Notes under the pieces: model-generated
Databases searched by the model: none
Told to the model about the DNA's origin: nothing
What the model saw: only the letters and a program-made list of their open reading frames with translations
Position numbers and translations under genes: made by a program
Assembly: GCA_903854335.1 (NCBI GenBank)
Contig: CAINVY010000010.1
Span: 133,060-197,059 of the forward strand
Reading direction: 5' to 3'
DNA from: an uncultured Candidatus Peregrinibacteria bacterium
GTDB taxonomy: Bacteria; Patescibacteriota; Gracilibacteria; Peribacterales; Peribacteraceae
DNA: 64,000 nt
Shown: one piece after another, positions 15,031-27,363 of the stretch
How positions within the stretch are numbered: the stretch's first letter is position 1
Layout of the letters: each line of letters starts with the position of its first letter

Positions 15031-15143
15031 GTGATGGTTCGTGGCTCGCTTCTTCCTTCCGTTTCTTACCATGTCAGCCTGAGGTGCTTTTTGCATAGCA
15101 AAAAGCCACGAAGGCTTAGGCGCGAGCACCTCACCATGACACG
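15031..15143 (+). repeat. 113-nt nested palindromic repeat, copy A
   Basis: Begins GTGATGGTTCGTGGCTCGC and ends GCACCTCACCATGACACG. It contains nested inverted pairs: TGTCAGCC-GAGGTGC with GCACCTC-TGACA, and GCTTTTTGC with GCAAAAAGC. It is almost identical to 15505-15618 and to the reverse complement of 25608-25719. The 5' TTCGTGGC can also pair with the inner GCCACGAA, so two folds compete. Confidence 0.85.
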
Positions 15144-15208
15144 CTGTATCAAAATCTCTTTCGAAGCACCTAAGGAATTCTGCGAAGCTTGCGAAGCAGA
15201 ATGGCGGT

Positions 15209-15234
15209 GCCATGGCGTTCGCGAACGCCATGGC
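15209..15234. repeat. palindrome GCCATGGCGTTCG / CGAACGCCATGGC, copy 2
   Basis: A 26-nt perfect palindrome whose right end overlaps the 3' CCA end of tRNA-Ser. It belongs with 6488-6512 and 15452-15477. Its position means it could form a hairpin just after the tRNA on the transcript. Confidence 0.7.
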
Positions 15235-15321
15235 GGTGGGAGAGGGATTCGAACCCTCGAACCCCTTTTGAGGGTTACGCGATTTCGAGTCGCGCGCCTT
15301 CGACCACTCGGCCATCCCACC
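15231..15321 (-). tRNA. tRNA-Ser (anticodon CGA)
   Basis: 91-nt class II tRNA with CCA encoded. Acceptor stem GGTGGGA / TCCCACC, discriminator G; D-arm GGCCGAGTGGTCGAAGGC; anticodon arm GCGCGACTCGAAATCGCG region with CGA in the 7-nt loop; long variable arm CCCTCAAAAGGGG type; T-arm GAGGGTTCGAATCCCTC. It reads UCG codons. It is flanked on both sides by copies of the 113-nt repeat and by the 26-nt palindromes. Confidence 0.95.
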
Positions 15322-15410
15322 GAGGATATTGTACGTAGGAAGAGTGGCGAAGGGAATGATGGAATGGAGGAGAGGATTCCGAGGAAATATTAAGCTCTTG
15401 CCACACACGC

Positions 15411-15489
15411 GTGTCACCCTGAGGGATTTCGCGAAGCGAAATCGTCACGAAGCCACGGCGTTCGAGAACGCCGTGGCGAAGGGCGACAC
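15411..15489. repeat. 79-nt composite palindrome with copy 3 of the GCCACGGCG palindrome
   Basis: Outer arms GTGTCACCCT and AGGGCGACAC enclose a perfect hairpin GATTTCGC-GAA-GCGAAATC (15425-15443) and the 26-nt palindrome GCCACGGCGTTCG/AACGCCGTGGC (15452-15477). The gap 15322-15627 has no gene other than this and the next repeat. Confidence 0.7.
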
Positions 15490-15504
15490 GCAAATAACCG
15501 CAAT

Positions 15505-15618
15505 GTGATGGTTCGTGGCTCGCTCTCTCCATCAGTTTCTTACCGTGTCAGCCTGAGGTGCTTTTTGCTTAGCAAAAAAGCCACGAAGGCTTAGGCGCGA
15601 GCACCTCACCATGACACG
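15505..15618 (+). repeat. 114-nt nested palindromic repeat, copy B
   Basis: Same element and orientation as 15031-15143, differing mainly in the CTCTCTCCATCAG stretch and one extra A. It lies about 10 nt beyond the end of the polX gene, so its transcript could end polX mRNA on the other strand. Confidence 0.85.
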
Positions 15619-15627
15619 TTGCTGTCA

Positions 15628-24646: not shown

Positions 24647-25564
24647 ATGAAGATCCTCGTTACGGGTTCCTCCGGCACCATCGGCACCAGACTCTGCGAG
24701 CGACTCCTCGAACGCGGAGAGGATGTCATCGGCGTCGATTGGGAACCGAACAAGTGGCAACCGCGCGTCGAAGCGATCACGACGCACATCGATCTCCGCG
24801 ATGAACATGCGCTACAAGCAGCCGCCGACAAGCTACAAGCCGATGTCATCGTTCACCTCGCAGCGAACGCACGCGTCTACGAGCTCGTCGAGCATCCCGA
24901 TCGCGCCCGCGACAATTTCCTCACGATCTTCAATACGCTCGAATTCGCACGCAAGAATTGTATCAAAGGCTTCCTCTTTGCCTCCTCCCGCGAATGTTAC
25001 GGCAATAGCTCCGCCACGCACTACACGGAGGACATGGCGCGCATGGAGAACTGCGAGAGTCCCTACACGGCGAGCAAAATCGCCGGGGAGGCCCTCGTCG
25101 AGGCCTACACGCGTTGCTACGGAATCGACCACGTCATCTTTCGCTTCTCGAATGTCTACGGCATGTACGACGATTCCGTACGCGTCGTTCCGAACTTCAT
25201 CCGCTTGGCTCGGAAGAACGAACCTCTCGTCATCTTCGGAAAAGACAAGTGCCTCGACTTCACGTTCATCGACGACGCCGTCACGGGGATCATCGCCACC
25301 ATCGATCGCTTCGACGCCTCAAAGAACGACACCTACAACATTGCCTTCGGCGAAGGCACCACCCTCACGCACCTTGCGAAACGCGTCATCGAAATCCTGA
25401 ACAGTTCTTCCACGCTCAGCATCGAATCATCGCGCACCGGGGAAGTCATCCGCTACGTCGCGGATATTGCGAAGGCGAAAAAGATGCTCGGATACGATCC
25501 GAAGATTTCGTTCGATGAAGGGATAGAGAAATCCGTAGAGTGGTATGCAAAGAATATGAATTGA
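24647..25564 (+). CDS. NAD-dependent epimerase/dehydratase
   Basis: 305-aa extended SDR: MKILVTGSSGTIGTRLCERL (Rossmann), VIVHLAANARVYELV, LFASSRECYGN, SPYTASKIAGEALVEAY (catalytic Tyr-x3-Lys) and FRFSNVYGMYDDSVRVVPNF. A GalE-like nucleotide-sugar epimerase or 4,6-dehydratase; the exact sugar is unknown. Its gene runs alone, divergent from the small membrane protein and convergent with the FAD oxidoreductase. A copy of the 113-nt repeat lies just after its stop. Confidence 0.86.
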   Translation: MKILVTGSSGTIGTRLCERLLERGEDVIGVDWEPNKWQPRVEAITTHIDLRDEHALQAAADKLQADVIVHLAANARVYELVEHPDRARDNFLTIFNTLEFARKNCIKGFLFASSRECYGNSSATHYTEDMARMENCESPYTASKIAGEALVEAYTRCYGIDHVIFRFSNVYGMYDDSVRVVPNFIRLARKNEPLVIFGKDKCLDFTFIDDAVTGIIATIDRFDASKNDTYNIAFGEGTTLTHLAKRVIEILNSSSTLSIESSRTGEVIRYVADIAKAKKMLGYDPKISFDEGIEKSVEWYAKNMN

Positions 25565-25607
25565 GAAAATTATTGTGACGATTTTCCATCAAAACCAACC
25601 AGCTTAG

Positions 25608-25719
25608 GTGTCATGGTGGGGTGCTCGCGCGTTGCCTTCGTGGCTTTTTGCTACGCAAAAAAGCACCTCAGGCTGACACGGTAAGAAACTGAAGGAGGAA
25701 GCGAGCCACGAACCATCAC
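25608..25719 (-). repeat. 112-nt nested palindromic repeat, copy C (inverted)
   Basis: Reverse complement of the elements at 15031-15143 and 15505-15618, starting GTGTCATGGTG and ending GCCACGAACCATCAC on the + strand. The paired arms are kept while loop bases differ (for example CAACGCGCGAG versus TTAGGCGCGAG), the pattern expected if the structure matters. It occupies the convergent gap between an epimerase and the FAD oxidoreductase. Confidence 0.85.
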
Positions 25720-25740
25720 CTAAGTTTTAGGAAAGCCTTG

Positions 25741-27363
25741 TTACCTCTTCCCCTCGTGGTAGTCGTCATCGATATTGACGCCCCACACGTTGGATTTGTC
25801 CGTGCGCCCTCCGAGGATGTTATCCACCGCGAGCATCGCCGTGAGCATGGAGTGATCCTGATTGTTGTACCGATGCTGACCGTTGCGACCGATGAGGAAG
25901 AGGTTTTGGAATCCGTCCGTGTACTTTTGCACGTGCGACAATTGATCGTACGTACCGATGTACGACGGGTACGCCTTCGGAATGCGCAGGACGCAACCGT
26001 CGAGGACGTCCTCGGACTTCAGGAAACCGATCTTCACCATCTCCTCGACGCCCAATCGCACCATGTCCTCATCCTTCTTCGACCATAGATCATCGCCCTC
26101 GTTCACGAAGTACTCGAGGCCGATCCAACAGTTCTTGCGATCCGCGACCATGTAGGGACTCCAATTATTGAAGATCTGGATGCGCCCCACGCGCACGTCT
26201 CGCTCCTGCACGTAAATCCAGTTGTCGGGAACCGTCGCCTGTGAGGGTTTCCCACGTTCGAGGACATGAAGCTTTTTCAGGAGAAGACCGACCGTGAGAA
26301 AATCGCGGTACACGAGCCCCTTCGCTACTTTCGCGATATCGCTCGGCGGCTCCGGCGTCAGCATCGAAAGAAGATGCTTGATGGGCATCGTGGAGAAAAA
26401 GTAATCGCATGGCACATCTCTCCTCTCCCCCGTCTTCTTGTCCTCGACCGTCACAGCGACGACCTTGCCACCCTCCGTGCGCACGCCGACCACGCGCGAG
26501 TGCATGTGCACTTGGCCGCCGCACTGCGTGACCTGCGTGGCGACCGTCTCCCACAATTGCCCCGGACCGAATTTGGGATAGTGGAATCGCGTGATGAGCG
26601 TCGTTTCGCGCTGCTCCTGCTTCTTCTTTGAATCACTCGAAATCATATCTCTGACCGCATGCACAAGCGCACTGCGTAGCGAGAGCCCCTTCACACGTTG
26701 TGCGCCCCAATCGGCACGAATCTGATTGCACGGAACACCCCACACCTTCTCCGTGTACGACTTGAAGAACGTCTCGAAGAGCCGCTTCCCAAAACGATTG
26801 GTGTAGAAAGCATCGAGATACGTTTCATCGCGGAGAGGAAAGATCTGCGCCTTGATGTAGCTGAGGAGGATGAGGAACGTATTGAAGATACCTAGCCGCA
26901 TCGCGACCGATAGCGTGATCGCAACGGGGTACGGGAAGAAACTACGAAGGTAGAAAATGCGAGAGAGGCGCGGACGCTGGAGCATCACGGCATCTTCCTG
27001 CTCAGGATCGGGAGCTCGGCGGCGCACGGTCTTGGCCCCCCCGGCGCACGCCTCGCAGAGGAAATCGATCAATACCTCATCCGCATAGTCGATCTCATGC
27101 TGCTTCTCCACGGTATCCGCTGCCGGCGCTCCCTGCGGTGGAAGGATATTGAACCACCACTTCATGATGCGATCGCTCTTGCTGAAAAAACGATGCCCCC
27201 CGATATCGATACGGTTCCCTTTGTACACGTACGTCTGCGAGATACCGCCAATCATGTCCGTCTCCTCGAAGACAATCGGTACGATGTCCGACCGCTTGAG
27301 AAGTTCATACGCGGCGGTGAGGCCCGCGGGCCCCGCCCCTGCAATGACCGCGACTTTTGCCAT
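25741..27363 (-). CDS. FAD-dependent oxidoreductase of surface-glycan loci (UGM/protoporphyrinogen-oxidase-like fold)
   Basis: 540-aa flavoprotein: [20 protein letters not shown] is the dinucleotide-binding motif at the N-terminus, followed by [17 protein letters not shown] and [14 protein letters not shown]. The central [19 protein letters not shown] resembles UDP-galactopyranose mutase-like and amine-oxidase-like proteins. Such genes are often linked to polysaccharide clusters, but the substrate is not established. An insertion around residues 78-125 ([19 protein letters not shown]) is unusual. True UDP-galactopyranose mutase is shorter (about 370-390 aa), so I do not call it glf. Confidence 0.8.

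Follow-up and report, generated by a model that had tools for sequence, protein, structure and literature searches.

What is a palindromic repeat of 113 nt doing on both sides of a tRNA-Ser gene, and again, inverted, at 25.6 kb, in the genome of an uncultured Candidatus Peregrinibacteria bacterium? The window analysed here is the whole 64,000-nt stretch of one contig of this organism. A first-pass annotation, made from the letters alone, had suggested either a miniature mobile element or a structured RNA. The three copies lie where it had placed them, at 15031-15143 (+), 15505-15618 (+) and 25608-25719 (−); its ends for the 113-nt unit fit the core, but the palindromes run on into flanks specific to each copy. 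A fourth, related element, absent from its list, lies between the tRNA and copy 2. The features are:

15031..15143, + strand: 113-nt composite, copy 1; an outer TGG-type hairpin (own sense strand −) whose loop contains a GCC-type hairpin in inverted orientation
15077..15115, + strand: inner hairpin of copy 1, GCC-TGAG-GTGCTTTTTGC..GCAAAAAGCCA-CGAA-GGC
15231..15321, − strand: tRNA-Ser(CGA), between copies 1 and 2 (ARAGORN and Rfam)
15411..15489, + strand: CCC-type relative, composite too, GTGTC-ACCC-TGAG-[GATTTCGCGAAGCGAAATC]..CACGAA-[29-nt insert]-GGGC-GACAC
15500..15622, core 15505-15618, + strand: composite copy 2; core 93% identical, palindromic flanks GCAATGTG...CACGTTGC
15551..15590, + strand: inner GCC-type hairpin of copy 2
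25603..25725, core 25608-25719, − strand: composite copy 3; core 92% identical, palindromic flanks CTTAG...CTAAG
25634..25674, − strand: inner GCC-type hairpin of copy 3

The 29-nt insert of the CCC-type relative is mostly a perfect palindrome, with CGAA on both sides. The CCC-type element (window 15411-15489 and locus L018) occurs in short and long forms, and the insert belongs to the long one.

The tRNA gene flanked by copies is real, and we judge its position to be incidental. Apart from the two copies in the window, no copy at the other scanned loci adjoined a tRNA, and the tRNA as insertion target was rejected on that ground. At the 3' end of tRNA-Ser, window positions 15170-15229 hold two further palindromes, ATTCTGCGAAGCTTGCGAAGCAGAAT (nearly perfect) and CCATGGCGTTCGCGAACGCCATGG (perfect), the latter of which may be its terminator. 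The orthologous region of the sister species G001 (contigs C54 and C31; loci L113 and L114) has two features that the window lacks at this place: a further tRNA-Ser-like gene, and an extra open reading frame, downstream of tRNA-Ser(CGA), that resembles a SET-domain protein.

The 113-nt unit consists of two hairpins of one family

Instead of a single palindrome, the 113-nt unit comprises two hairpins of one family in opposite orientation, the inner one lying in the loop of the outer. A family hairpin reads [CT]GTC-A-NNN-YGAG-loop-CGAR-N'N'N' and in its simplest form measures about 25 nt, with a loop of 5-6 nt. The unit holds the module GTGTCA-NNN-TGAGGTGC...GCCACGAA-N'N'N' twice, in opposite orientations: the outer module, read on the − strand, is GTGTC-ATGG-TGAG-GTGCTCGC...GCGAGCCA-CGAA-CCAT-CAC, and the inner one, inverted inside its loop, is GTGTC-AGCC-TGAG-GTGCTTTTTGC...GCAAAAAGCCA-CGAA-GGC. 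A third small family hairpin (CCTTCGTCAGGCTCAGGGCAGGCT) sits in the right arm of four copies.

Both modules combine a free block of pairs (NNN/N'N'N') with a fixed TGAG/CGAA internal loop, a tandem G.A mismatch that reads 5'-YGAR-3' on either strand and whose neighbouring pairs covary. Tandem G.A mismatches in this context form stable sheared pairs in DNA and RNA. In a variant internal loop, CGAG/CGAG, a C-G pair replaces the flanking T-A pair. The stem ATGGTGAG/CGAACCAT spans 8 positions including the two G.A mismatches; position 1 is A in nearly all hairpins, and position 2 is T in the TGG and TCC types and G or C in the GCC and CCC types.

The pairing arms listed by the first-pass annotation (GTGTCA/TGACAC and GAGGTGC/GCACCTC) do pair, but they run across two modules. 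The two competing folds it proposed are an artefact of a unit that holds one module twice, once inverted: the same arms recur in the inner and the outer module in opposite orientation, which makes an alternative pairing available. Predicted folding gains modestly over shuffled sequences (z about −2 to −3) and comes out much the same for either strand and for RNA and DNA. We rejected a riboswitch-like switch, given a z of only −2 to −3 and an alternative pairing that follows from composition.

Hairpins are numerous, intergenic and largely confined to one family

The window holds too few copies for a scan of over-represented tandem-mismatch motifs to be informative. The host genome (G000, Candidatus Peribacteria; 1.17 Mb in 13 contigs, 97% complete) has about 23 full or near-full-length copies of the 113-nt unit at 73-100% identity, along with shorter variants, and the best match elsewhere in the genome (E 3.5e-43) is far beyond chance. 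The generalised motif GTGTCANNNTGAG, whose NNN is mostly TGG, GCC or CCC, has 63 matches there versus 2 for the reversed motif; CGAA plus the reverse complement of NNN lies downstream in 43 of 57 matches, versus 16.4 with NNN shuffled. Neither outcome that the first-pass annotation had named as speaking against a family, a lack of further copies or arm decay without compensation, was found: there are more copies, and both arms covary.

All copies in this genome are intergenic, with none inside a called gene. The 21 copies with a classifiable gene context divide into 9 convergent, 7 unidirectional and 5 divergent; copy 3 occupies the gap between the convergent genes 24647-25564 (+) and 25741-27363 (−). 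The same genome also carries a segment of about 460 bp (L129:9453-9912, contig C7) that recurs at 81-88% identity in at least five places; from its translation, our guess is that it encodes a C-terminal peptidoglycan-binding-like domain.

Elsewhere in the same family, GTGTCANNNTGAG counts reach about 80 per genome and are zero in many relatives. When 84,980 species genomes were scanned for the pattern, the outer hairpin turned up in Candidatus Peribacteria/Peregrinibacteria assemblies only; the TGG hairpin was present in 32 of 288 genomes of the class, nearly all from one family, with 0 control matches. Among the 148 TGG hairpins listed, the loop is 5-6 nt in 105 and extended in 43, enlarged by unrelated palindromes or other family hairpins, and 12 of these 43 were scored as containing a whole family hairpin. 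Of the TGG hairpins sampled, roughly half lie no more than 110 nt from an inverted family hairpin, mostly of CCC or TCC type, with the tags outside.

The 113-mer core and the TGG dimer had no exact match in IMG/VR. The simple TCC hairpin GTCATCCTGAGCGAAGCGAAGGATC occurs in 24 IMG/VR contigs (L212-L235), and therefore simple members of the hairpin type occur outside Peribacteria. Phage carriage was rejected, exact IMG/VR matches being limited to this simple hairpin and none of the 24 contigs carrying a GIY-YIG gene of the kind described below.

Sister species differ in which hairpins occupy the same gaps

Comparison of orthologous sites revealed presence, absence and replacement of hairpins. 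At the copy 2 site, the same flanks enclose a short single hairpin in G001; at the copy 3 site, G001 has two other family hairpins, and G002 and G003 have none. A 113-mer at a further site (L012) is common to G000 and G001 (107/111 identical), with the simplest TGG/CCC dimer, in inverted order, in G002 and nothing in G003. At another (L006), both the element and a neighbouring gene are missing from G001. In two more intergenic gaps, hairpins have been gained, lost or replaced in other ways between species. The hairpins are probably mobile, with insertion as the likely direction of change.

Copy-specific flanks are inverted-complementary (4.70 observed versus 3.38 ± 0.24 when mispaired, permutation p = 5e-5). 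In an alignment of 18 copies, 7 of 10 pairs of the outer flank helix have changed on both sides, and the covariation score is 0.156, compared with 0.087 ± 0.009 for shuffled flanks and at most 0.079 when they are slid; double changes exceed G-U intermediates. A target-site duplication, which the first-pass annotation had proposed looking for, did not appear: direct repeats in the flanks gave no signal (p = 0.19). With flanks inverted-complementary rather than directly repeated, we rejected a classical MITE of a DDE transposon. The earlier reading as a miniature mobile element is thus upheld by dispersed intergenic copies, presence and absence at orthologous sites and nesting at a fixed junction (see below), but not in the sense of a classical MITE.

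Hairpins are nested at a fixed junction after GT(C)

Among 30 hairpins retrieved without the tag in the query, 26 are preceded by [CT]GTCA, and in 23 the loop ends in GT before C. Ten nested cases from seven genomes have the identical junction NNN-YGAG-loop-GTC|ANNN..N'N'N'|CGAR-N'N'N', in which the incoming unit starts directly after GT(C) and ends directly before (C)GAA or (C)GAG, with an ambiguity of at most one nucleotide (C). The shared junction and the [CT]GTCA prefix therefore identify the tag as the left border of a unit and the entry point of the next. The tag is not strictly unpaired, because it often pairs with the palindromic flank; CCAT is followed by GACAC, AGACAC or CAC.

The GCC hairpin within the 113-mer is inverted and has no GT(C) junction, so we infer the assembly route of this composite. 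If GTC alone were the target, roughly 5-10 landings in hairpin loops would be expected on a rough estimate, versus 10 seen; GTC targeting alone might therefore account for how often loops are hit, without a special preference for hairpins. Simple insertion after GTC leaves the copy-specific palindromic flanks unexplained. Units may settle at dyad centres, for example GTGTC|GACAC, or their arms may grow outward. Comparable placement inside palindromes has been reported for some GTAG and CGTC families of repetitive extragenic palindromes (REPs; PMC3733652).

A GIY-YIG nuclease gene adjoins some hairpins in Peribacteria and beyond

The gene next to the 113-mer at L006, 12 nt away, encodes a GIY-YIG protein (PF01541, E 7e-18; 100-115 aa) and forms with the element a cassette of about 420 bp, a second copy of which lies on another contig of the host genome at 87% identity; two GIY-YIG genes of this genome stand beside 113-mers. 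One GIY-YIG protein of G000 is encoded at 68972-69319 of contig C7. In the alignment, the GIY-YIG domain retains its conserved Tyr, Tyr, Arg and Glu. By sequence, the closest solved structures are UPF0213 GIY-YIG proteins (PDB 1zg2, E 3e-13; 1ywl, E 2e-10). Across the retrieved Peribacteria loci, tblastn identified six such genes and one remnant, all at most 100 nt from a family hairpin, an adjacency measured in loci selected for hairpins. When each gene was set against random positions in its own locus, the proximity was more or less unusual for five of the six (0.0008 to 0.083) and unremarkable for the sixth, L094 (0.31).

Plasmid records searched by GIY-YIG proteins only are independent of that selection. 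Tagged hairpins occurred within 300 nt of the gene in 13 of 22 plasmid loci, with 41 in 19.8 kb of near sequence versus 33 in 89.1 kb of far sequence. About ten of these loci have them on both sides of the gene, including loci from Rhizobium, Shinella, Neorhizobium, Aeromonas, Spirosoma, Neisseria, Planktothrix and Azospirillum. The repeats flanking the genes of rhizobia, Azospirillum, Aeromonas, Neisseria, Spirosoma and Planktothrix are CGTC/TGTC-tagged REPs; in Azospirillum a REP/GIY-YIG/REP unit lies between sufB and sufC. Beside Methylobacterium genes whose products are 58-61% identical to the Peribacteria protein, we found the variant CCTCATCC-TGAG...CGAA-GGA. The gene on Planktothrix agardhii plasmid p1 (L240), bracketed by tagged hairpin dimers, lies between genes for an MmeI-type restriction enzyme and a DISARM helicase.

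No such hairpins accompanied the GIY-YIG genes of Sphingomonas, Sphingobium and N. aromaticivorans, or those in housekeeping positions (nrdR, rnc-era and yazA); B. subtilis YazA, a UPF0213 protein, is encoded in a housekeeping operon without hairpins, unlike the Peribacteria gene. Our literature searches found no paper linking GIY-YIG to REP, RAYT, dRS3 or CGTC. The closest description concerns the Ssn nucleases of Neisseria, reportedly site-specific single-strand GIY-YIG enzymes that act on repeated NTS sequences (Chenal et al., Nature Communications 2025), in a study said to concern transformation and ssDNA tools. Ssn is reportedly, like the Peribacteria protein, small and stand-alone, with repeats near its own gene as targets; that work is not known to cover Peribacteria, nesting or an insertion junction.

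Resemblance to CGTC-tagged REPs

The CGTC-tagged REPs surveyed by Di Nocera et al. in 2013 include Neisseria dRS3 and Rickettsia RPE-4/6, were reported without a dedicated transposase, and come from phyla among which Candidate Phyla Radiation bacteria are not named (PMC3733652). Like them, the Peribacteria hairpins have a [CT]GTC tag and form intergenic heterodimers with tags outside and without a RAYT; the A-T first stem pair, the stem of about 8 positions and the loop of 5-6 nt are broadly comparable. Some CGTC REPs, too, are reported inserted inside palindromes. Taken character by character, the terminal tag of CGTC REPs is CGTC, or TGTC or CCTC, and 26 of 30 Peribacteria hairpins carry [CT]GTCA; stem positions 1 and 2 are AT, and in Peribacteria A comes first, with T second in the TGG and TCC types only; stems are 8-9 bp with loops of 4-5 nt, compared with 8 positions and, in 105 of 148, loops of 5-6 nt. 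Heterodimers of the HH type predominate, as they do here, with an inverted partner within 110 nt of about half of the TGG hairpins in the sample. The unpaired CCA-like 3' tail is absent from the Peribacteria hairpins, and because of this we do not file them as formal CGTC REPs. They differ further in the conserved tandem G.A internal loop, a second stem base that is not always T, long copy-specific palindromic flanks and nested composites of up to 113 nt. One alphaproteobacterial CGTC REP, CGTCATTGCGAGCGCAGCGAAGCAATCCA, has a GAG...CGAA core as in Peribacteria.

GTAG REPs and REPINs with their RAYT (TnpA-REP) share with the Peribacteria hairpins a high copy number, tagged imperfect palindromes, conserved mismatches and dimers, and the REPtron, an enzyme gene flanked by the repeat, resembles the Peribacteria cassette. 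The tag, however, is [CT]GTC and not GTAG, and the adjoining gene encodes a GIY-YIG nuclease, with no Y1 transposase. On sequence characters, the Peribacteria hairpins resemble the CGTC/TGTC-tagged REP superfamily in kind, and not the GTAG/RAYT REPs.

Weighing the explanations

The reading that best fits these results is one of nested TGTC-tagged, REP-like mobile hairpins with a stand-alone GIY-YIG nuclease as their most likely driver, to which we assign a probability of roughly 0.62. The copies might instead have arisen with no moving enzyme, through template switching, gene conversion and slippage at microhomologies such as GTC and CGAA, with the GIY-YIG genes as passengers or homing on repeats. 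Microhomology template switching could produce the nested GT(C) junctions, which have 3-5 nt in common with source copies; loop contents have been swapped between short and composite forms at orthologous sites, and the copy-specific palindromic flanks are consistent with palindrome growth. This account nevertheless has to accommodate whole units in gaps that are empty in relatives, a gene with its REPs placed between sufB and sufC in Azospirillum, and a GIY-YIG adjacency that is found again in distant phyla, where the repeat sequences differ; we consider it unlikely.

Two further explanations appear considerably less probable. That the hairpins are transcribed and kept by selection as a functional RNA, as bidirectional terminators or as stabilisers of mRNA 3' ends, would suit covarying arms, the position of copy 3 in a convergent gap, the avoidance of called genes and the 9 convergent contexts among 21. 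Folding, however, shows no strand preference, Rfam holds no matching family, and the excess of double changes over G-U intermediates in the flank helix does not suit RNA, and the structured RNA of the first-pass annotation is not supported; divergent contexts, presence/absence between sister species and nested self-insertions also weigh against this explanation, which we regard as very improbable. Standard REPs of the GTAG/RAYT type, moved in trans by a Y1 (IS200/IS605-like) transposase, would likewise be small tagged palindromes forming dimers, without target duplication and inserted 3' of a short tag, in keeping with IS200/IS605 logic. Yet the tag is not theirs, and the Y1 transposase domain (PF01797) is absent from G000 and from the repeat-rich genomes G015, G046, G047 and G048, though control genomes gave matches; nor did any of ten Y1_Tnp loci examined elsewhere have a simple family hairpin. 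A RAYT or Y1 transposase as driver was rejected on these grounds, and we give such an origin scarcely any weight.

A candidate mechanism and its meaning

If the hairpins are mobile units served by the GIY-YIG protein, the nuclease would recognise a folded single-strand hairpin with its tag and cut near GT^C, allowing units to reach new GTC sites by copying or relocation and to insert directly after GT(C). Units would insert into each other because the loop of a simple hairpin usually offers GTC at its 3' edge, and the 113-mer, a GCC hairpin inverted within a TGG hairpin, may have been assembled by unit insertion together with exchange of loop contents. The single-strand cleavage and causal role of the nuclease are putative; adjacency and comparative evidence make it the best-supported candidate for the mechanism.

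More tentatively, and with somewhat less than even confidence, we propose that tagged hairpins and GIY-YIG genes make up one mobile system in several phyla, in which the nuclease takes the place of RAYT, insertion occurs at GT^C, including in the units' own loops, and the autonomous element consists of the gene plus the hairpins that flank it. The cassette of element and gene in Peribacteria and the sufB/sufC unit in Azospirillum would be examples of such elements. The nested junctions indicate where units would enter, and the recurrent GIY-YIG neighbours in several phyla provide a concrete and easily purified candidate enzyme for CGTC-type REPs, a widespread class of repeats. Within the small genomes of Peribacteria, the hairpins explain part of the intergenic turnover between sister species.
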